A DNA stretch of 37,194 nt from Syntrophomonadaceae bacterium (GTDB lineage: Bacteria > Bacillota > Syntrophomonadia > Syntrophomonadales > Syntrophomonadaceae), in the NCBI GenBank assembly GCA_012520725.1, contig JAAYNQ010000061.1, positions 1 through 37,194 on the forward strand. The letters are read 5' to 3'. Shown here in pieces: positions 622-9,135 of the stretch (positions are counted from its first letter, which is position 1; each line of letters starts with the position of its first letter). Made by a program: the position numbers and the translations under genes. Under the pieces are notes generated by a model, which made no database searches, had not been told where the DNA came from, and worked only from the letters and a program-made list of their open reading frames with translations.

Positions 622-680
622 GGGGTCATTGAAATTTGGCTGCCAAGCAGCAGAATAATTTCTCTTGACCCCTTTTTTTT
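622..680 (+). terminator. Long intrinsic terminator in the leader of the SLH gene
   Basis: GGGGTCA (622-628) pairs with TGACCCC (666-672). Inside, GAAATT can pair with AATTTC and GCTGC with GCAGC. Eight T residues follow directly (673-680), then five more after one A. It lies on the coding strand about 50 bases before the SLH start codon. I see no convincing sigma-A promoter between it and the gene. It either ends transcripts from upstream or acts as an attenuator. Confidence 0.75.
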
Positions 681-730
681 ATTTTTATGGACGCATTTAT
701 ATATAAAGAAAAAAACAGGAGGGAAAGACA

Positions 731-2455
731 TTGAGAAAAGTAATTAGTATAATCGCTCTGTGTGTATTTACTATTAGCATTTGGAGTGGGATCGCTTTGG
801 CCAAAAATGACCACAATGCTAACGGTGTTAAAGGCAAACCCGTTAAGATCAGCCAAGTTCAGCGATTCAAAGATGTAGACCGGGATTGGGCAAGGGAGGA
901 TATAGAGGAAGCAAGCTATAAAGGATTTATAAAGGGCTATCAAGATGGGACTTTTCAGCCCAATAAACCAGTAAGTCGTCTGGAAACGATAGTGATACTG
1001 ATAAGAGTAGCAGGACTGGAAGAACTGGTTGAGGACTACCAGTTAAGTAATAAGGACTATAAAGAATTAAAGAAGGTTCCTGACTGGGCTAAAGCTTACG
1101 TGGCGGTAGCATTGAAAGAGGGAATCATATTTGAAGATGAAATCAAGACTTTCAACCCCAACCAGGGAGCCAAGAGATATGAAGTCTGTATTTATATGCA
1201 GAACCTTTTGGATAAGTTCAATATTAACCCGGATGACGATAGATATCTGAACAGATTTAAAGATAAAGACATATTCCCCCTTAAGGCTCACAAGTCCATA
1301 AAGAATTTGGCCTGGCTAGGAGTGGTCAATGGATATCCGGACGGATCCTTCTCCCCTATGCGGGTGGTTAAACGAAATGAAATAGCACGGATGATCAATT
1401 ACCTATATAATAACTGCATCGGTAATAAGGCCTCTTATGTGCTGAAGGGGACTCTGTCAGAAGTTGAACTGAAGCAAGAGGTACTAAAACTGAAGATTGC
1501 CGATAATAAAGGCAAGAAGTGGAATTTCTCCATAGAGGAAGATGATGATATTAAACTCTATTATGACGATCAAAAACTGAAATTTGACGACTGGGATCAA
1601 ATAGAAGCTGGCGGAGCGGTAAGTATGCTGCTGAATAAGAATCAGGAAGCAGTCTGGATAAGAATAGCTGCACCGGAGCAGAAAGAAGATTACCTGTTAT
1701 GCAAAGGAACCTTGAAAAAAGTAGACCTGGATGATGAAGTAATAAAGCTGGATATAGTGGATAGTAAAGGCAAAGAGTGGAGTTTCACCGTAGAAGAAGA
1801 TGATGAAGCAGACATATATTATGGAGCTGAAAAGCTGGAATCTGACGAATGGGACCTGATTGAGGCCGGAGGAGATGTAAAGATGTTGCTGGATAAGGAG
1901 CAAGAACTGGTCTGGATCAAAATAGCTCCCCCAGAACAAGAAGCAGATTACCTATTATTCGAAGGAACCTTAAAGAAGGCAGAACTGAACAATGAGGTAC
2001 TGAATCTGAACATAGTCGATAGTAAAGGTAAAAAGTGGGCTTTCGCCCTCGAGGAAGAGGATGAGCTTGATTTGTACTATGGCAGTCAAGAGCTGGCCTT
2101 TGATAATTGGGACCAAATAGAGGCCGGTGGATCAGTACGGGTGCTGCTGGATAAGGACCAAGAAGTTATCTGGCTCAAAATTGCCCGGCCGGAACAGGAA
2201 GAGGATTATACCTTAGTAACAGGTACTCTGTCGGAGCTAGTATTTGATGATGAGGTGGTTTATCTAAATATAGTCGACAGCAATAATAAAGAGTGGGATT
2301 TTACCATAGACCAAGAGGACGAGTTGGATTTATATTATGATGGTAAAAGGCTTGCCTTTCAAGACCTGGAAAGCATTAAAACGGGAGGAGAGGTAAAAAT
2401 GCTGCTGAATAAGGATGAGAAACCTATATGGATCAAAATGAATACTCCTTCATAA
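731..2455 (+). CDS. S-layer homology (SLH) domain protein with four C-terminal repeats
   Basis: Predicted exported cell-surface protein of 574 residues. A TTG start follows the ribosome site AGGAGGG. Residues 1-24 form a signal peptide ending in IALA. Three SLH modules follow at about 46-96, 115-160 and 175-230, with the typical FKDV and GYxDGTFxP motifs. SLH modules bind secondary cell-wall polymers, usually pyruvylated. From residue 236 to the end are four tandem repeats of about 85 residues (starting near 236, 321, 407 and 493). They share GTL, VDSKGKxW, EEDDE, LYY, IEAGG, MLL and WIKI and are predicted to be all beta. The repeats are very acidic and I do not recognise their family. A structured leader with a terminator precedes the gene, and sigI-rsgI follows on the same strand. 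Confidence 0.9.
   Translation: MRKVISIIALCVFTISIWSGIALAKNDHNANGVKGKPVKISQVQRFKDVDRDWAREDIEEASYKGFIKGYQDGTFQPNKPVSRLETIVILIRVAGLEELVEDYQLSNKDYKELKKVPDWAKAYVAVALKEGIIFEDEIKTFNPNQGAKRYEVCIYMQNLLDKFNINPDDDRYLNRFKDKDIFPLKAHKSIKNLAWLGVVNGYPDGSFSPMRVVKRNEIARMINYLYNNCIGNKASYVLKGTLSEVELKQEVLKLKIADNKGKKWNFSIEEDDDIKLYYDDQKLKFDDWDQIEAGGAVSMLLNKNQEAVWIRIAAPEQKEDYLLCKGTLKKVDLDDEVIKLDIVDSKGKEWSFTVEEDDEADIYYGAEKLESDEWDLIEAGGDVKMLLDKEQELVWIKIAPPEQEADYLLFEGTLKKAELNNEVLNLNIVDSKGKKWAFALEEEDELDLYYGSQELAFDNWDQIEAGGSVRVLLDKDQEVIWLKIARPEQEEDYTLVTGTLSELVFDDEVVYLNIVDSNNKEWDFTIDQEDELDLYYDGKRLAFQDLESIKTGGEVKMLLNKDEKPIWIKMNTPS
1436..2452 (+). repeat. Four tandem ~258-bp coding repeats in the SLH protein
   Basis: Four in-frame units begin near 1436, 1691, 1949 and 2207, at 255-258 base spacing. 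The encoded units align along their whole length and keep the GTL start, the acidic EEDDE patch and the AGG-x-V-x-MLL core. Units 2 and 3 look closest to each other, which fits repeated tandem duplication. Confidence 0.85.
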
Positions 2456-2492
2456 GCAGCTTAAGACTCAAATCCAAAAACTTATTACTATA

Positions 2493-2522
2493 GGTAGGGT
2501 TGTAAACCAGTACAGCCCTACC
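2493..2522 (+). other. Hairpin between SLH gene and sigI
   Basis: GGTAGGG (2493-2499) is complementary to CCCTACC (2516-2522) around a 16-base loop that contains a further short pairing. There is no T-run after it, so it is at best a weak terminator for the SLH gene or a processing structure ahead of sigI. Confidence 0.4.
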
Positions 2523-2603
2523 GTAGTTTATGCAAAAGCCAAAAACAGTTATAGTTAAAGATGAAGCTATTGGAGCTGTTTTAGGATTAGCAGGAGGCAT
2601 TTG

Positions 2604-3302
2604 ATGTTGGGGGATCAGTCGACAAAGCTGGAAAATAGAATCTACCGGGGATGGGAAGAGTATGATGCCGGCAATACCAATGCTATTGAGGATATATATC
2701 ATGAATTAATTCCCTTTTGCTTACGGGTATGTTCCAAAGTTTGCGGCAGGTTCATCAATGACAATGATGAAGAATCGAGTATAGCTCATCTATCCATACT
2801 GGAGGCCTTTTCCAGCTATGACCCCAATAAAGGCAAAATACTGGTATATCTGGCTCGAGTAATCAGAAACCGGATTATAGATTTTAAACGAAGTGAAAAG
2901 AAAAAGCAGTTCTTATCCCTATGGGAAGTGGATGCTGCCTTGCCTATAATCCAGGAAAGACAAATTGATGATATTGTTGAGGAATTGGCTAGAAAGCAGG
3001 AGATAGAAAGCTTGGGTCGTTTATTGCAGGCTTATAATATCAAATTTAGTGATCTGCCTCGCTCCAGCCCCAGGCACAATAAAACCCGGGAAGAGGCCAA
3101 AAAAATATCCTTGAAAATAGCCAGTGAACCTCTATATCAGAGTTATTTACTGGAAAAGAAACAGTTGCCGATTAAGATGCTGGAAGAACGAGAAATGATA
3201 AACCGGAAGTTAGTGGATAGATATCGACGATATATTATCGCCAATGCCCTAATTATCATATACGACTTTAGCTATTTAAAATCCTATGTTTTGCCTTCTT
3301 AA
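2604..3302 (+). CDS. sigI: RNA polymerase sigma factor SigI
   Basis: Alternative sigma-70 family factor of the SigI type, 232 residues, expected to direct RNA polymerase to envelope or extracellular-polysaccharide genes. The N-terminal half is a sigma-2-like domain: IPFCLRVCSKVCGR, then an EESSI/LEAFSSYDPNKG block and RNRIIDFKR. The C-terminal domain is the SigI type, with DLPRSSPRHNKTREEAKK, KKQLPIKMLEERE and RYRRYIIANALI. The ATG at 2604 is chosen over the TTG at 2601 because AGGAGG at 2592-2597 is then six bases away. The anti-sigma gene rsgI starts 14 bases downstream. SigI genes are usually autoregulated, but I see no clear SigI-type promoter in the 148 bases upstream. Confidence 0.93.
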   Translation: MLGDQSTKLENRIYRGWEEYDAGNTNAIEDIYHELIPFCLRVCSKVCGRFINDNDEESSIAHLSILEAFSSYDPNKGKILVYLARVIRNRIIDFKRSEKKKQFLSLWEVDAALPIIQERQIDDIVEELARKQEIESLGRLLQAYNIKFSDLPRSSPRHNKTREEAKKISLKIASEPLYQSYLLEKKQLPIKMLEEREMINRKLVDRYRRYIIANALIIIYDFSYLKSYVLPS

Positions 3303-3316
3303 AGGGGGAGCTTGAA

Positions 3317-4405
3317 ATGTCAAAGGTGAATGGCATCGTTATGGAATCAGGCCCAGGTTGGGTCCTGGTATTGCTGGAAAATGGAGAATACCGGAAGTTT
3401 AGGAGCCGTAGCTTCCTGATGCCGGGTGATATATACCAGGGAAGGGCTTATTCTCTGTACCCCAGGTATATGGCTGTTGCAGCAGCGATAATAATAATGC
3501 TGCTAGGCACCCTGGACTTTTATAATGTGCTTGCTTATGCTCGAGTTTCTTCAGGGGTAGAAATGGGTATTAATCGTTGGAATAGGGTAATATCAGTTTC
3601 AGCCATAAATACCGAGGGGGAGTCAATTCTACGAACTATAGAGCCAAAAGGCCAAGATCTGGAAAAAGCACTGGAAATGGTGCTGGAAGAGTCACTTAAG
3701 CAAGGTGATGACTCTTCTCCTAAGGAAATAATGGTCTCGATACAAAAAAGCGATAAAGAAAAAAGCATTCCTCCGGGAATTGATAAAAAGCTGAAAAAAT
3801 TTAATTCCTCAGATGATAGTAACGAATATAGCCTAAAAAAGCAGAGCAGCCAGCAAGATAAAATCGTATATGGCCTTAGCAAAAAGAATAAGACCCAGCA
3901 GCCCTCTGGGGGTAATAAGAAAGTAGATAATAAAGGGGCTAGTTCTAAGAACGCTAATAATCAAGATGAAAATCGGAAGTTAGGGGTAAATCCAAAGCAG
4001 AACGATCAAGAAGATAATAAAGGGCCAGGGACAAACTTCAACGGCAATGATAAAAACGGTAGGAAATGGCCAGTAATAAATCCCAACCCTAACAACAAAA
4101 ACGATAGCCCGAAGTCATGGATAAATCCCAACAACAACCGAAAAAACGATAGCCAAAAACCATGGATAAATCGCAACACCAACAATAAAAACGATAGCCA
4201 AAAACCAGAGGTAAAGTCCAACAACAATAAAAACGATAGCCAAAATACAGGAGTAAAATCCAACAGCAAGAATAAAAACGATAGTCAAAGGACAGGGATA
4301 AATCTCAACAGCAATAAAAACAATAGCCCAAAACCGGGTATAAATAGCCACACTAACAGTAAAAGCGATAGCCAAAAGCCAGGGATACACCCCTGGAGGT
4401 CATAA
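3317..4405 (+). CDS. rsgI: RsgI-family anti-sigma-I factor with Asn-rich repeat tail
   Basis: Membrane anti-sigma factor paired with SigI, 362 residues. Residues 1-45 are the cytoplasmic RsgI N-terminal domain (MSKVNGIVMESGPGWVLVLL). One membrane helix lies near 53-73. The extracytoplasmic part opens with the RsgI middle domain (GVEMGINRWNRVISVSA, up to about 130). After a Lys/Gln/Ser linker come about eight degenerate units of NNKNDSQKPxIN type, from about residue 250 to the end. In cellulolytic clostridia this outer region carries carbohydrate-binding or glycosidase modules; none is visible here. The Asn-Pro dipeptide often found just before the SIELGINR-like motif is replaced by SSG, so self-cleavage may not occur. 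RBS AAAGGGGGAG. A frameshifted relic of the tail follows the stop codon. Confidence 0.92.
   Translation: MSKVNGIVMESGPGWVLVLLENGEYRKFRSRSFLMPGDIYQGRAYSLYPRYMAVAAAIIIMLLGTLDFYNVLAYARVSSGVEMGINRWNRVISVSAINTEGESILRTIEPKGQDLEKALEMVLEESLKQGDDSSPKEIMVSIQKSDKEKSIPPGIDKKLKKFNSSDDSNEYSLKKQSSQQDKIVYGLSKKNKTQQPSGGNKKVDNKGASSKNANNQDENRKLGVNPKQNDQEDNKGPGTNFNGNDKNGRKWPVINPNPNNKNDSPKSWINPNNNRKNDSQKPWINRNTNNKNDSQKPEVKSNNNKNDSQNTGVKSNSKNKNDSQRTGINLNSNKNNSPKPGINSHTNSKSDSQKPGIHPWRS
4075..4396 (+). repeat. Low-complexity tandem repeat in the rsgI 3' end
   Basis: About eight imperfect units of roughly 40-50 bases encode the Asn/Lys/Asp/Ser-rich tail. The core AACAAxAAAAACGATAGC recurs between 4096 and 4376. Such A-rich repeats are prone to slippage, and the tail length is probably variable between strains. 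Confidence 0.7.
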
Positions 4406-4500
4406 TAATGATAATATGCCAGGGATGGTACTAACCCAGTGACATAAGGAAAATGAGCAATAAGGACCAAATCCTGACAGCAAAAACCATTATGAATAGG
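4406..4500 (+). pseudogene. Frameshifted relic of the rsgI repeat tail
   Basis: In the +1 frame relative to rsgI, from 4395 on, the translation reads GGHNNDNMPGMVLTQ, a stop, HKENEQ, a stop, then GPNPDSKNHYE and another stop. The composition matches the NNKNDS-type repeats of rsgI. A slip at the CCCC run near 4390-4393 would explain the early stop at 4403. The remainder of this intergenic stretch up to 4680 shows no recognisable gene. Confidence 0.4.
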
Positions 4501-4862: not shown

Positions 4863-4894
4863 TAATCTTGATCAAAAAGACGGCAGGTGAAGAG

Positions 4895-5329
4895 ATGAAT
4901 AAATACGAGAAGATCGTCGAAGAATTCTTCTTATTACTCAGCTATATGCGGATGAACTACTTTCGGCCGGCGGAGCAGATTACCCGGTCCAAGCTGAGCC
5001 CCGGGCAGTTCCATACTATATCTATTTTGCGTAAAGGACCTTTACCTATGAAAGAACTGGCCTGCAGGATGATGATATCCAAGCAGCAGCTGACACCTCT
5101 GGTATCCAAGCTTATAGATGCCGGGCTGGTTAAAAGGAAAACTGACGAGAATGACCGGCGGGTCGTGCTAATAGAAGTTACTGAGAGAGGTGTCCAACTG
5201 CATGATGAGCTAAAGACCGACATCAAAAGGGCATTTATAAAAAAAATCAGTGTTCTGCCGGAAGACCAAATAGACGAACTTGAAATAGCCCTTAAAAAGA
5301 TACAGACCATTCTCAAAGGTGCTACTTAA
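4895..5329 (+). CDS. MarR-family transcriptional regulator
   Basis: Winged-helix repressor of the MarR family, 144 residues, the usual length. The DNA-binding part includes GPLPMKELACRM, the recognition helix SKQQLTPLVSKLIDAGLV and the wing KRKTDENDRRVVLIEVTERG, with the conserved Asp-x-Arg of the wing. The ATG at 4895 is chosen because AGGTGAAG stands just ahead; a TTG nine codons earlier has no ribosome site. It lies 138 bases before two ABC exporter genes on the same strand. This arrangement is common for MarR repressors of drug exporters that respond to the exported compound. The palindrome over its promoter supports autoregulation. The ligand is unknown. Confidence 0.93.
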   Translation: MNKYEKIVEEFFLLLSYMRMNYFRPAEQITRSKLSPGQFHTISILRKGPLPMKELACRMMISKQQLTPLVSKLIDAGLVKRKTDENDRRVVLIEVTERGVQLHDELKTDIKRAFIKKISVLPEDQIDELEIALKKIQTILKGAT

Positions 5330-5467
5330 ACGTACCGCACGGTATTAAACCGGAAGTATTTTTAAGGCGGTTAAAAGAATGGAAACGTACCTTAGGCAGG
5401 TTTTAAAAGGTCTAAATAAAGGAACCAAGAGTAGTACCTAACTAATACCGGATGGAGTTTTACATTT

Positions 5468-7195
5468 ATGATTAAATTGTTACCTGGTCTAAAACCATAC
5501 ACTTTAAGTCTATTCCTGGTTATTATATTTCTTCTTGCTCAGTCACTAGCTGAATTGTATCTCCCTACCCTAATGTCAGATCTGGTTGATAACGGGATGA
5601 TGAAAGGTGACAGCAGCTACGTGTGGAGGTTCGGCAGTTACATGTTGCTAGTGGCCTTGCTGAGCAGCCTCTGTTCCGTGGCAGCCAGCTATCTATCCTC
5701 TATTATTGGAATGGGTTTCGGTAGAGATACTCGCAACCTGGTGTTTTCCCAGGTAGAAAACTATTCTTTGCATGAATTCGATCAGATTGGAACCGCTTCC
5801 CTCATCAACCGGACTACCAACGATATTACCCAGGTGCAAACCCTGCTGGTAATCGGTCTGCGCTTTATGGTCAGTGCTCCCATTATGTGCATCGGGGGAA
5901 TTATTATGGCCTATTCCAAAGATAAACACCTGACATTGATATTGGTGGTAGTACTTCCGCTTATGCTGGCTTTCATCGCTATCCTGGCCAGGTATGTGGT
6001 TCCCCTGTTTAGGGCCATGCAGAGCAAATTGGATAAAGTCAACCTGGTGCTGCGGGAGAATTTAACCGGCATCAGGGTGATCCGTGCCTTTAACCGCTTA
6101 AAAAAGGAAACTGTACGCTTTGATAAAGCCAATCGGGATTTAAGCGACACAGCCATTCGGGTCAACAAGATCATGGCCTCCATGCATCCGCTTATGATGA
6201 TTTTTCTGAATCTTACCTCCATAGCCATTATATGGTTCGGAGGACTGCGCATTGCCCAGAATAGTATGCAAATAGGTGATATGATGGCTTTTATACAATA
6301 TGCCATGCAGATCATGTTTTCTATTATTATGGTAACTTTTATGTTTGTTATGATACCTCGTGCTGAAGCATCGGCGGTACGCATAAACCAGGTACTAGAT
6401 GTGCAGCCCCAAATACTTGATCCTGCAGATGCCAAAGCTGCCGGCGATAAGAGAGGATATGTGGAATTTAGGGATGTTAGCTTTGCTTATCCAGGGGCTG
6501 AGAAGCCGGCCATAAGCAACATCTCGTTTAAGGTACGACCGGGAGAGGTGACGGCTATAATCGGCGGCACTGGTTCCGGCAAGTCTACTCTGGTTAATCT
6601 GATCCCCCGGTTTTATGATGTGGTTTCCGGCAGTGTCCTGGTGGATGGAGTGGATGTACGGGAGATGAGGCAGCAGGAACTGCGCAGTAAAATTGGATTT
6701 GTGCCGCAGAGTCCTATCCTTTTCAGCGGAACTATTGCCGACAATATCCGTTATGGTAAGCTTGATGCTACCGACCTCGAGGTGCACCACGCTGCTGAGA
6801 TTGCTCAAGCCAGCGAATTTATCCAGGCTATGAAGGATGGCTACCAATCGGTGATTGCTCAAGGGGGCACTAATTTATCCGGGGGACAAAAACAGCGTCT
6901 GGCTATGGCCCGGGCACTGATCAGAAAACCAGGTATCTATGTCCTGGACGACAGTTTCTCCGCCTTGGATTTTAAAACCGATGCCCGGCTTCGAGCTGCC
7001 CTGAAAAAGGAAATCGTGGATTCTACCCTTATAATTGTGGCCCAGAGAGTAAGCACAATTATGGATGCCGACCAGATTATCGTATTGGATGAAGGCCGGA
7101 TAGCCGGGATCGGTAAGCATAAGGAACTGCTGAAAAACTGCCAGGTATACTATGAAATAGTATCGTCCCAATTATCTCAAGAGGAGATTGCATAG
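5468..7195 (+). CDS. ABC exporter half-transporter, subunit with degenerate ATPase site
   Basis: Type IV ABC exporter subunit of 575 residues: six membrane helices (residues 1 to about 310), then one nucleotide-binding domain. Walker A GGTGSGKST starts at residue 366 and the signature LSGGQKQR at 470. Walker B ends in LDD, with Asp 495 where the catalytic Glu normally stands. The switch His is replaced by Gln 526 (VAQRVS). These two changes mark the degenerate partner of heterodimeric exporters such as TM287/288, BmrCD and LmrCD. The other subunit begins two bases after this stop codon. The substrate cannot be read from sequence; multidrug or lipid-like compounds are typical. Control by the upstream MarR protein is inferred. 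Confidence 0.94.
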   Translation: MIKLLPGLKPYTLSLFLVIIFLLAQSLAELYLPTLMSDLVDNGMMKGDSSYVWRFGSYMLLVALLSSLCSVAASYLSSIIGMGFGRDTRNLVFSQVENYSLHEFDQIGTASLINRTTNDITQVQTLLVIGLRFMVSAPIMCIGGIIMAYSKDKHLTLILVVVLPLMLAFIAILARYVVPLFRAMQSKLDKVNLVLRENLTGIRVIRAFNRLKKETVRFDKANRDLSDTAIRVNKIMASMHPLMMIFLNLTSIAIIWFGGLRIAQNSMQIGDMMAFIQYAMQIMFSIIMVTFMFVMIPRAEASAVRINQVLDVQPQILDPADAKAAGDKRGYVEFRDVSFAYPGAEKPAISNISFKVRPGEVTAIIGGTGSGKSTLVNLIPRFYDVVSGSVLVDGVDVREMRQQELRSKIGFVPQSPILFSGTIADNIRYGKLDATDLEVHHAAEIAQASEFIQAMKDGYQSVIAQGGTNLSGGQKQRLAMARALIRKPGIYVLDDSFSALDFKTDARLRAALKKEIVDSTLIIVAQRVSTIMDADQIIVLDEGRIAGIGKHKELLKNCQVYYEIVSSQLSQEEIA

Positions 7196-7197
7196 TT

Positions 7198-9135
7198 ATG
7201 TCTATCAAAGAACAAAATCAGGACCGGCCCCAGAACAGAAGAGGACCTATGGGACATGGCGGGCCACCTATGGGGAGGCCGCCGGAAAAAGCCCGCGATT
7301 TTAAAGGGACCCTGAAAAGGCTGGCTCAATACCTGGCTGTGGAGAGGTATCGTTTTATACTGGTATTCTTTCTCGCTATAGGCAGTACCCTCTTTTCTAT
7401 AGTCGGGCCCAAGATTATGGGTATGGCTACCACCAAACTGGGTGAAGGAGTTCTGGCCAGATATGACTATATGATGCAGTTGCAGGCTGCTGTTCAAAAA
7501 AACCTGCCCATAGCCTATATAAAGCAGCTGGAAAAGCAGGCTCCGACTTTTGATTTGGAATATGTGGGGAGAATTTTGCTGCTGCTCATGGGACTTTATA
7601 TCATAAGTGCCCTTTTCACTTATGCCATGGCTTATATAATGGCCACGGTTTCCCAGGAAACGGTTTATCGTATGCGAAATGATGTTAAGCACAAACTGGA
7701 CCTGCTTCCTCTCAGTTATTTCGATCAGCGCACACATGGGGAAATCCTGAGCCGGGTCACCAATGACATGGACAATATAGCCAATACTCTGCAGCAGAGT
7801 CTTACCCAACTGATAACCTCATTGGTTACCGTAGTGGGTATATTAATCATGATGCTCAGCATCAGTCCGCTTTTAACCCTTATTGCCCTGGTGAGCTTGC
7901 CGGTAAGTATTATTATAATCAGGTTTATTACCAGGTACTCCCAGAGATTGTTCGTTCAGCAGCAGAGATGTCTGGGCGAACTAAACGGGCATGTTGAAGA
8001 AATGTATTCCGGCCATAAGATAGTTAAGGTATTCGGTCAAGAAAACAATTCCATAGAGAAATTCAAGACCATCAATTCCCGCTTGTATGAGGTGGGATGG
8101 AAAGCTCAATTTATGTCCGGGGTCATCTTCCCGGTCTTAAATCTGGTTAATAATGTAGGTTATGTATTGGTATGTATTGCCGGTGGGGTTTTGGTAGCCC
8201 AAAGAGTCATACAAATCGGTGATATTCAAGCCTTTATCCAGTATATCAGGCAGTTTACCCAGCCCATCATGCAATTGGGCAATATCGCCAATATAATACA
8301 ATCAACGGTGGCATCGGCGGAAAGAGTTTTTGAAATTCTGGATGAAAGTGAAGAAGTGGCAGACAGTGAAGATGCCAAAGTAATTCCCTTTCCCCAGGGT
8401 GAGGTTAAATTCGAACACGTTAAGTTCAGGTATAAAGAGGATGTTCCCCTTATTGAAGACCTGAGTATCAACGTAAAAGCCGGTCAGACTATTGCCATTG
8501 TAGGTCCTACCGGGGCCGGAAAAACTACCCTGGTTAACCTGATCATGCGCTTCTATGAGGTTCAGGAAGGGCGAATCACCATAGATGGGGTAGATATCAG
8601 GGATATAAAACGGGGAGATCTGCGTACCATGTTTGGTATGGTCTTGCAGGATACCTGGCTGTTTAATGGAACCATACGGGATAATATTGCCTATGGAAGG
8701 GACGAGGCTTCCGAAGCAGAGATTATCCAGGCGGCTAAAGCAGCCCATGCCCATCACTTCATAATGACCTTGCCCGAGGGCTATGATACGGTCTTAAACG
8801 AAGAAGCATCCAATATATCCCAAGGCCAAAAACAGCTTCTGACTATCGCCCGGGCGTTCCTGGCTGATCCAACCATCCTTATACTGGACGAGGCTACCAG
8901 CAATGTTGATACTAGAACCGAAGTACTGATTCAAGAGGCCATGGGCACTTTAATGAAGGGAAGAACCAGTTTTGTCATTGCTCACCGGCTATCAACCATA
9001 CGAGAAGCATATTTAATACTGGTGATGAACCAGGGCGCTATTATTGAACAAGGGCACCATAAAGATCTGCTGGCCCGGGGCGGATTCTATGCCGAACTAT
9101 ATAACAGCCAGTTTACCGGGGCGGCTCTGGCTTGA
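7198..9135 (+). CDS. ABC exporter half-transporter, catalytic subunit
   Basis: Partner of the preceding ABC protein, 645 residues. An N-terminal cytoplasmic extension rich in Pro, Gly and Arg (GHGGPPMGRPPEK) is followed by six membrane helices and a nucleotide-binding domain. Walker A is GPTGAGKTT at 436-444, Walker B LILDEATSN with catalytic Glu 565, and switch His is 596 (IAHRLS). The signature is ISQGQKQL at 540, with Gln in place of the first Gly. Walker A/B here should pair with the intact LSGGQ of the first subunit to form the active site. The degenerate site combines the first subunit's Asp and Gln with this altered signature. This matches the asymmetry known for heterodimeric exporters. 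Confidence 0.94.
   Translation: MSIKEQNQDRPQNRRGPMGHGGPPMGRPPEKARDFKGTLKRLAQYLAVERYRFILVFFLAIGSTLFSIVGPKIMGMATTKLGEGVLARYDYMMQLQAAVQKNLPIAYIKQLEKQAPTFDLEYVGRILLLLMGLYIISALFTYAMAYIMATVSQETVYRMRNDVKHKLDLLPLSYFDQRTHGEILSRVTNDMDNIANTLQQSLTQLITSLVTVVGILIMMLSISPLLTLIALVSLPVSIIIIRFITRYSQRLFVQQQRCLGELNGHVEEMYSGHKIVKVFGQENNSIEKFKTINSRLYEVGWKAQFMSGVIFPVLNLVNNVGYVLVCIAGGVLVAQRVIQIGDIQAFIQYIRQFTQPIMQLGNIANIIQSTVASAERVFEILDESEEVADSEDAKVIPFPQGEVKFEHVKFRYKEDVPLIEDLSINVKAGQTIAIVGPTGAGKTTLVNLIMRFYEVQEGRITIDGVDIRDIKRGDLRTMFGMVLQDTWLFNGTIRDNIAYGRDEASEAEIIQAAKAAHAHHFIMTLPEGYDTVLNEEASNISQGQKQLLTIARAFLADPTILILDEATSNVDTRTEVLIQEAMGTLMKGRTSFVIAHRLSTIREAYLILVMNQGAIIEQGHHKDLLARGGFYAELYNSQFTGAALA

Follow-up and report, generated by a model that had tools for sequence, protein, structure and literature searches.

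A Syntrophomonas-type SigI–RsgI pair with a lost Asn-Pro self-cleavage site and a probable link to an S-layer-homology wall protein gene

In this study, we analyzed a sigI–rsgI gene pair in a stretch of 37,194 nucleotides (the window, contig JAAYNQ010000061.1) from a Syntrophomonadaceae bacterium. We consider it fairly likely that the pair constitutes a cell-envelope stress switch of the Bacillus subtilis type, two parts of which have been altered in this lineage: RsgI would be uncut at rest, and SigI would drive a unit composed of an SLH protein gene, sigI, and rsgI (Table 1). The lineage-wide loss of the Asn-Pro site and the probable SigI-controlled SLH operon are the less ordinary features of the system, and the disordered tail of RsgI is of a known type. 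The genome is of the Syntrophomonas type (assembly of 212 contigs), and its closest relatives by SigI are Syntrophomonas MAGs. The lineage set comprised 24 loci with the window's type of SigI, the adjacent partner of each SigI being taken as its RsgI. The SigI proteins of these 24 members form one clade with a support of 1.0, and no RsgI partner inside this clade bears the Asn-Pro site.

Table 1 Features of the SLH–sigI–rsgI locus in the window.
Feature	Position	Strand	Evidence
Predicted SigI-type promoter ACCCC-N19-CGCA, T-tract after -35, TTTATATA after -10, 36 bp 5' of SLH gene	668..695	+	Motif in 16/24 loci
Secreted SLH-domain protein, predicted SigI target: 3 SLH domains, then 4 repeats of an unnamed acidic ~85-aa domain	731..2455	+	Pfam SLH 5.4e-28, 3 stretches
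Strong hairpin between SLH gene and sigI, without T-run	2487..2527	+	RNA fold of 2456–2603: -42.1 kcal/mol, z -3.3 vs shuffles
sigI, sigma factor SigI	2604..3302	+	NCBIfam SigI 1.7e-60 (under the strict equivalog cut-off); PDB SigI6 8i24 4.9e-21
rsgI, membrane anti-sigma factor RsgI	3317..4405	+	Pfam RsgI_M 1e-12; model matches B. subtilis RsgI 8t9n
RsgI cytoplasmic N-domain, SigI-binding barrel, aa 1–47	3317..3457	+	Model vs 6ivs (C. thermocellum RsgI1 N-domain): Z 6.7, 49 residues; unspecific, other small barrels score about equally
RsgI transmembrane helix, aa 48–69, VAA-type motif near start	3458..3523	+	Model helix; A55 invariant in 19 sequences
RsgI SEAL-like extracytoplasmic domain, aa 73–189	3533..3883	+	Model vs 8t9n: Z 11.7, 101/111 residues, 2.5 A
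Ser78-Ser79 in place of Asn-Pro of self-cleaving RsgI	3548..3553	+	Alignments to 8u9o and 8t9n; family alignment
RsgI disordered tail, aa 192–362 (~171 residues)	3890..4402	+	pLDDT ~40, no secondary structure; charge-hydropathy -0.50, hydrophobics 10%
45-bp minisatellite within RsgI tail	4076..4387	+	Tandem Repeats Finder: period 45 bp, 7.1 copies

The sigI frame begins with an ATG behind a good ribosome-binding site (AGGAGG, 2592–2597). Its product combines a Sigma-70 region 2 with the SigI-specific C-terminal domain over its full length: the NCBIfam SigI models match at aa 9–230, Pfam Sigma70_r2 also matches, and SigI6 in PDB entry 8i24 aligns with aa 19–229. The rsgI gene follows on the same strand after a gap of 14 bp and also lies directly 3' of sigI in all 24 relatives. 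When rsgI was used as a query against the window genome, the single match was the gene itself, and no paralogue was found. A preliminary description of the window had assigned positions 2604–4405 to a SigI/RsgI pair, and the family matches confirm both the assignment and the coordinates.

RsgI (362 aa) consists of an RsgI_N domain, one transmembrane helix, and an RsgI_M/SEAL domain. The Pfam RsgI_M model matches at aa 81–178; RsgI_N reaches 14.4 bits in the window protein, which is under the Pfam cut-off, and is matched in 18 of the 19 family members scanned (best 1.5e-11). The Pfam scan of these 19 RsgI proteins found no other domain, and the C-terminal folded module (CBM, GH, PA14, or similar) that characterizes cellulosome-type RsgI is absent. 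An AlphaFold model, for which the input alignment contained the 19 family sequences, has a barrel at residues 3–43, a helix at 48–69, a SEAL-like fold at 73–189, and an unstructured region at 192–362. The structure nearest to the SEAL part is that of B. subtilis RsgI (8t9n), and the model retains the SEAL fold.

The scissile Asn-Pro of self-cleaving SEAL domains is missing from the window RsgI. In the alignment with the RsgI9 fragment in 8u9o chain B, which we interpret as beginning at the Pro, the third residue of the fragment aligns with Val81, placing Ser78-Ser79 on Asn-Pro, and the alignment with 8t9n agrees. The canonical A-Y-V-S-V-D-I-N-P-S-V-E has A-Y-A-x-V-S-S-G-V-E as its counterpart in the family alignment. 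The first SEAL strand of the lineage RsgI proteins is two residues shorter, and none of the 24 retains the Asn, which has mostly given way to Ser or Thr. The residue pairs found at the lost site are S-S, S-P, S-N, T-P, S-T, E-S, G-T, and M-P, with [ST]-x-G being common there, and the deepest branch (L023) retains the length and carries Met-Pro. Because the Asn-Pro site is gone, the RsgI proteins of this lineage are probably uncut at rest, and the first cut would arise in another way. Besides the alignments, there is one experimental parallel: Clostridium thermocellum RsgI8, which is without the self-cleavage motif, is uncleaved, and its first step is stated as unknown (PMC12203970). Decay of the SEAL domain is unlikely because the predicted fold is retained. 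Independent loss or change of Asn-Pro (I-P, H-N, H-H, S-S, G-P) was also observed in other RsgI lineages (L152–L154, L169, and L070).

Like RsgI of the B. subtilis type, the window protein has a long tail after the SEAL domain that is predicted to be disordered and extracytoplasmic. Its composition is of low complexity, with 25% N, 14% K, 11% S, 10% hydrophobics, and a net charge of +17. The preliminary description had presented the outer part as an Asn-rich tail of about 110 residues without a sugar-binding module. The low pLDDT and the Pfam scan of the 19 members bear out a disordered region without such a module, while the tail is in fact about 171 residues long; the figure of 110 is close to the minisatellite array of ~104 aa, whose Tandem Repeats Finder scores (237–321) are above chance. 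The Asn-richness applies to the window and is not conserved, as relatives use K, D, or E. All 24 lineage tails are hydrophilic and predicted to be disordered from charge and hydropathy, and they span 54 to 190 residues when the tail start is set by a fixed offset. Their composition drifts from N-rich in the window to D/K/N-rich in three other Syntrophomonas and E/K-rich elsewhere, and the net charge ranges from +17 to -16 (n = 24). Hydrophilicity and predicted disorder are therefore the conserved properties of the tail, and its Asn-richness is local.

Disordered tails also predominate among RsgI proteins of many other families of the phylum that carry the standard cleavage site, in a sample that consisted of top-scoring matches and was non-random. 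Papers referring to Brunet 2022 (PMC13059805, PMC10128001, and PMC10202637) describe the disordered region of B. subtilis RsgI as presumably extending into the wall and sensing defects there. The proposal that the tail represents another sensing mode is not upheld because B. subtilis RsgI is described in those citing papers as sensing in this way; the disordered tail is ordinary for RsgI. Several variants were observed at the C-terminus. An RsgI-type protein from another lineage of the same family (L038, G020:C121) appears by eye to have a PepSY-like folded C-terminus, and the NP-bearing RsgI of G012 (L037/L091), also of this family, has a tail of Trp/Asn/Gly tandem repeats. Past the rsgI stop in the window (4391–4500), another frame gives PGGHNNDNMPGM... 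and GPNPDSKN, perhaps a frameshifted former extension of the tail.

The second altered part is the transcription unit. Among the 18 loci compared initially, 10 have an SLH orthologue directly 5' of sigI; G002, G004, G006, and G029 have one as well, giving 14 of 24 loci in several genera. Scanning 2.2 kb 5' of each sigI placed ACCCC-N18/20-CG[AC]A before the SLH–sigI–rsgI unit or before sigI in 16 of the 24 loci, while 200 dinucleotide-shuffled sets gave a mean of 0.59 and a maximum of 3, and the opposite strand gave 0. The pattern was derived from nine loci and is present in seven of the fifteen remaining loci. The distance from the motif to the SLH gene is approximately 35–70 bases in most loci. 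Compared with the Bacillales SigI consensus ACCCCC--AA15(N)CGAA (PMC4711584), the -35 box and the spacing agree, whereas the -10 box differs, being CGCA in 15 of the 16 motif loci and CGAA in the remaining one; most have a T-rich segment where the consensus has the A-pair after -35. Since the motif stands 5' of the SLH–sigI–rsgI unit or of sigI itself in these 16 loci, SigI probably autoregulates and drives the SLH wall protein gene from the predicted promoter.

A sigma-I motif immediately 5' of sigI was rejected as the general layout: most loci have none there, and the motif instead precedes the upstream SLH gene. In G022, G008, and G030, the SLH gene is absent and the motif is found directly before sigI. 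The arrangement is best read, from the gene order and motif positions, as SigI autoregulation with the SLH gene, in most genera, lying between sigI and its promoter. The link is lineage-wide and not universal, because neither motif nor SLH gene is present in seven of the 24 loci and the motif of G029 is degenerate (GCCCC...CGTA). No SigI was found in G003, where the contig ends inside an SLH gene preceded by the same motif; its sigI was therefore probably lost in an assembly gap. The hairpin in the SLH–sigI interval probably attenuates read-through into sigI, which suggests that the SLH protein is made in excess over SigI. Hairpins are seen by eye at the same place in relatives, several of them terminator-like with a T-run.

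SLH proteins are common in the window genome (51 domain matches). The SLH–sigI–rsgI order is absent from the other families sampled, of which L161 and L171 have a nearby SLH gene in other arrangements, and we found no report tying SigI to an S-layer-homology wall protein in the literature searched. The acidic repeat of the window SLH protein is beta-rich and present in four copies, with one copy in the orthologues of other genera and about three in G001. The NP-bearing relative G012 (L037/L091) has a different SLH protein 5' of its sigI–rsgI, preceded by ACCCC-A-tract-CGAA.

As far as the B. subtilis system (Brunet 2022; Brogan 2023) is described in citing papers and in PDB entry 8t9n, it shares with the window the gene pair, the domain order, the SEAL-like fold, the disordered hydrophilic tail, and the promoter spacing. 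Relative to that description, the window RsgI has no Asn-Pro site and a first strand shorter by two residues, and its promoter has CGCA with a T-tract rather than CGAA with an A-pair, with an SLH gene heading the unit. C. thermocellum RsgI1–RsgI7 and RsgI9 also have the SEAL-like periplasmic domain and the N-domain (8hdj, 8hep, 8her, 8u9o, and 6ivs). However, most of them carry folded substrate-binding modules and are self-cleaving, and the window RsgI is predicted to be neither. RsgI8 of the same species resembles the window protein in having neither the self-cleavage motif nor a distinct carbohydrate-binding module (PMC12203970), but it is one of nine paralogues in a cellulolytic species, whereas in the window RsgI, without a paralogue found, this state is lineage-wide.

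We propose the following scheme for the altered stress switch. The N-terminal barrel of RsgI would keep SigI at the membrane, while the SEAL-like domain and the disordered tail would lie in the wall space. By analogy with B. subtilis, the tail may report the integrity of the wall or surface layer; a wall-related role, already raised in the preliminary description, is on this analogy the most likely one. The first break in RsgI would be made by a separate extracytoplasmic protease or by force-driven opening of the SEAL domain. PrsW was rejected as the first protease because none was found in the window genome, so that the first protease, if any, would be another one. As in C. thermocellum, RseP would then make the second, intramembrane cut and ClpXP would degrade the remainder, freeing SigI; an RseP-type protease is present in the window genome (221 bits). 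The freed SigI would transcribe the SLH wall protein gene from ACCCC-N19/20-CGCA, followed by sigI–rsgI through partial read-through.

Other explanations differ from this scheme in how RsgI is cut or in what its outer part does. Some eukaryotic SEA domains self-cleave at Gly-Ser. Self-cleavage of the SEAL domain at Ser-Ser or Ser-Gly, which would be the standard mechanism with a changed residue, fits the retained fold (Z 11.7 to 8t9n) and the frequent [ST]-x-G at the site. We nevertheless regard it as unlikely: the site residues are variable, the preceding strand has a two-residue deletion, the scissile Asn is absent throughout, and the motif-less RsgI8 of C. thermocellum is uncleaved (PMC12203970). 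Much less probable still is a cellulosome-type polysaccharide-sensing RsgI whose sugar-binding module has decayed to a remnant tail. The Asn/Pro/Gly-rich frame past the rsgI stop would allow for a formerly longer tail, but a folded module, which the preliminary description had named as the sign of such decay, is found in none of the lineage members; the tails are disordered in 24 of 24, disordered tails are the norm in the phylum, and they are open and hydrophilic across genera. The relatives thus largely refute a decayed module.

The conserved SLH–sigI–rsgI order across several genera and the shared control could also point to surveillance of the S-layer, in which the RsgI tail contacts a wall-polymer-bound SLH protein and SigI is triggered when that protein is lost or misplaced. 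The upstream SLH gene with ACCCC...CGAA in G012, a relative with NP, is in line with this idea. However, the tail charge is not conserved, leaving no simple pairing with the acidic SLH protein, and some lineage members have no SLH gene at this position; surveillance of this kind has a low probability. Charge attraction between a basic tail and the acidic SLH protein was rejected as a general rule, as the sign of the tail charge flips among relatives. Similarly low is the probability of a natural lineage of uncleavable RsgI proteins that rely on a regulated first protease (or on mechanical opening) instead of self-cleavage and are coupled to S-layer surveillance, with the SLH protein serving as the main SigI target while the RsgI tail monitors whether it is properly placed. 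A tail that is a functionless expansion of low complexity, with the SEAL domain as the sole sensor, is quite unlikely. The fast turnover of tail sequence and length and the minisatellites would agree with that, but a disordered tail is retained in all 24 members, and the papers citing the B. subtilis work report the disordered region as the sensor.

The loss of Asn-Pro across a lineage in which the fold and the tail are retained makes the start of RsgI signaling without self-cleavage open to comparison and simple expression tests, and the conserved promoter motif is a ready reporter. The predicted promoter would tie SigI, hitherto linked to peptidoglycan upkeep and cellulosomes, to an SLH wall protein.

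The 3' neighbors of rsgI in the window are a MarR gene and an ABC exporter pair (4868–9135). In many relatives (L078, L080, L081, L082, L083, L085, and L086), rsgI is followed by opposite-strand flagellar-type genes and then by NrdR-like and PRC-barrel-like genes, as judged by eye. A stricter promoter pattern gave 3 exact matches in the window genome, and the pattern-based scan across the family gave a modest excess over control; a genome-wide SigI regulon by pattern was dropped on these grounds, with one recurrent candidate beyond the SLH unit. This is a receiver-like protein of 129–132 aa (L132 and L134/L144; G001:C20 and G002:C37), shared by two Syntrophomonas genomes besides that of the window and preceded at approximately 80 bp by a SigI-type promoter. 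Its upstream motif makes it a candidate second member of the regulon in G001 and G002, and the match to it in the window genome is only 41%. In G001:C1 (L133, about 12498), an ACCCC...ACGCATATATAA motif is present 5' of a small ORF and a gene for an 874-aa MalT/LuxR-like regulator.
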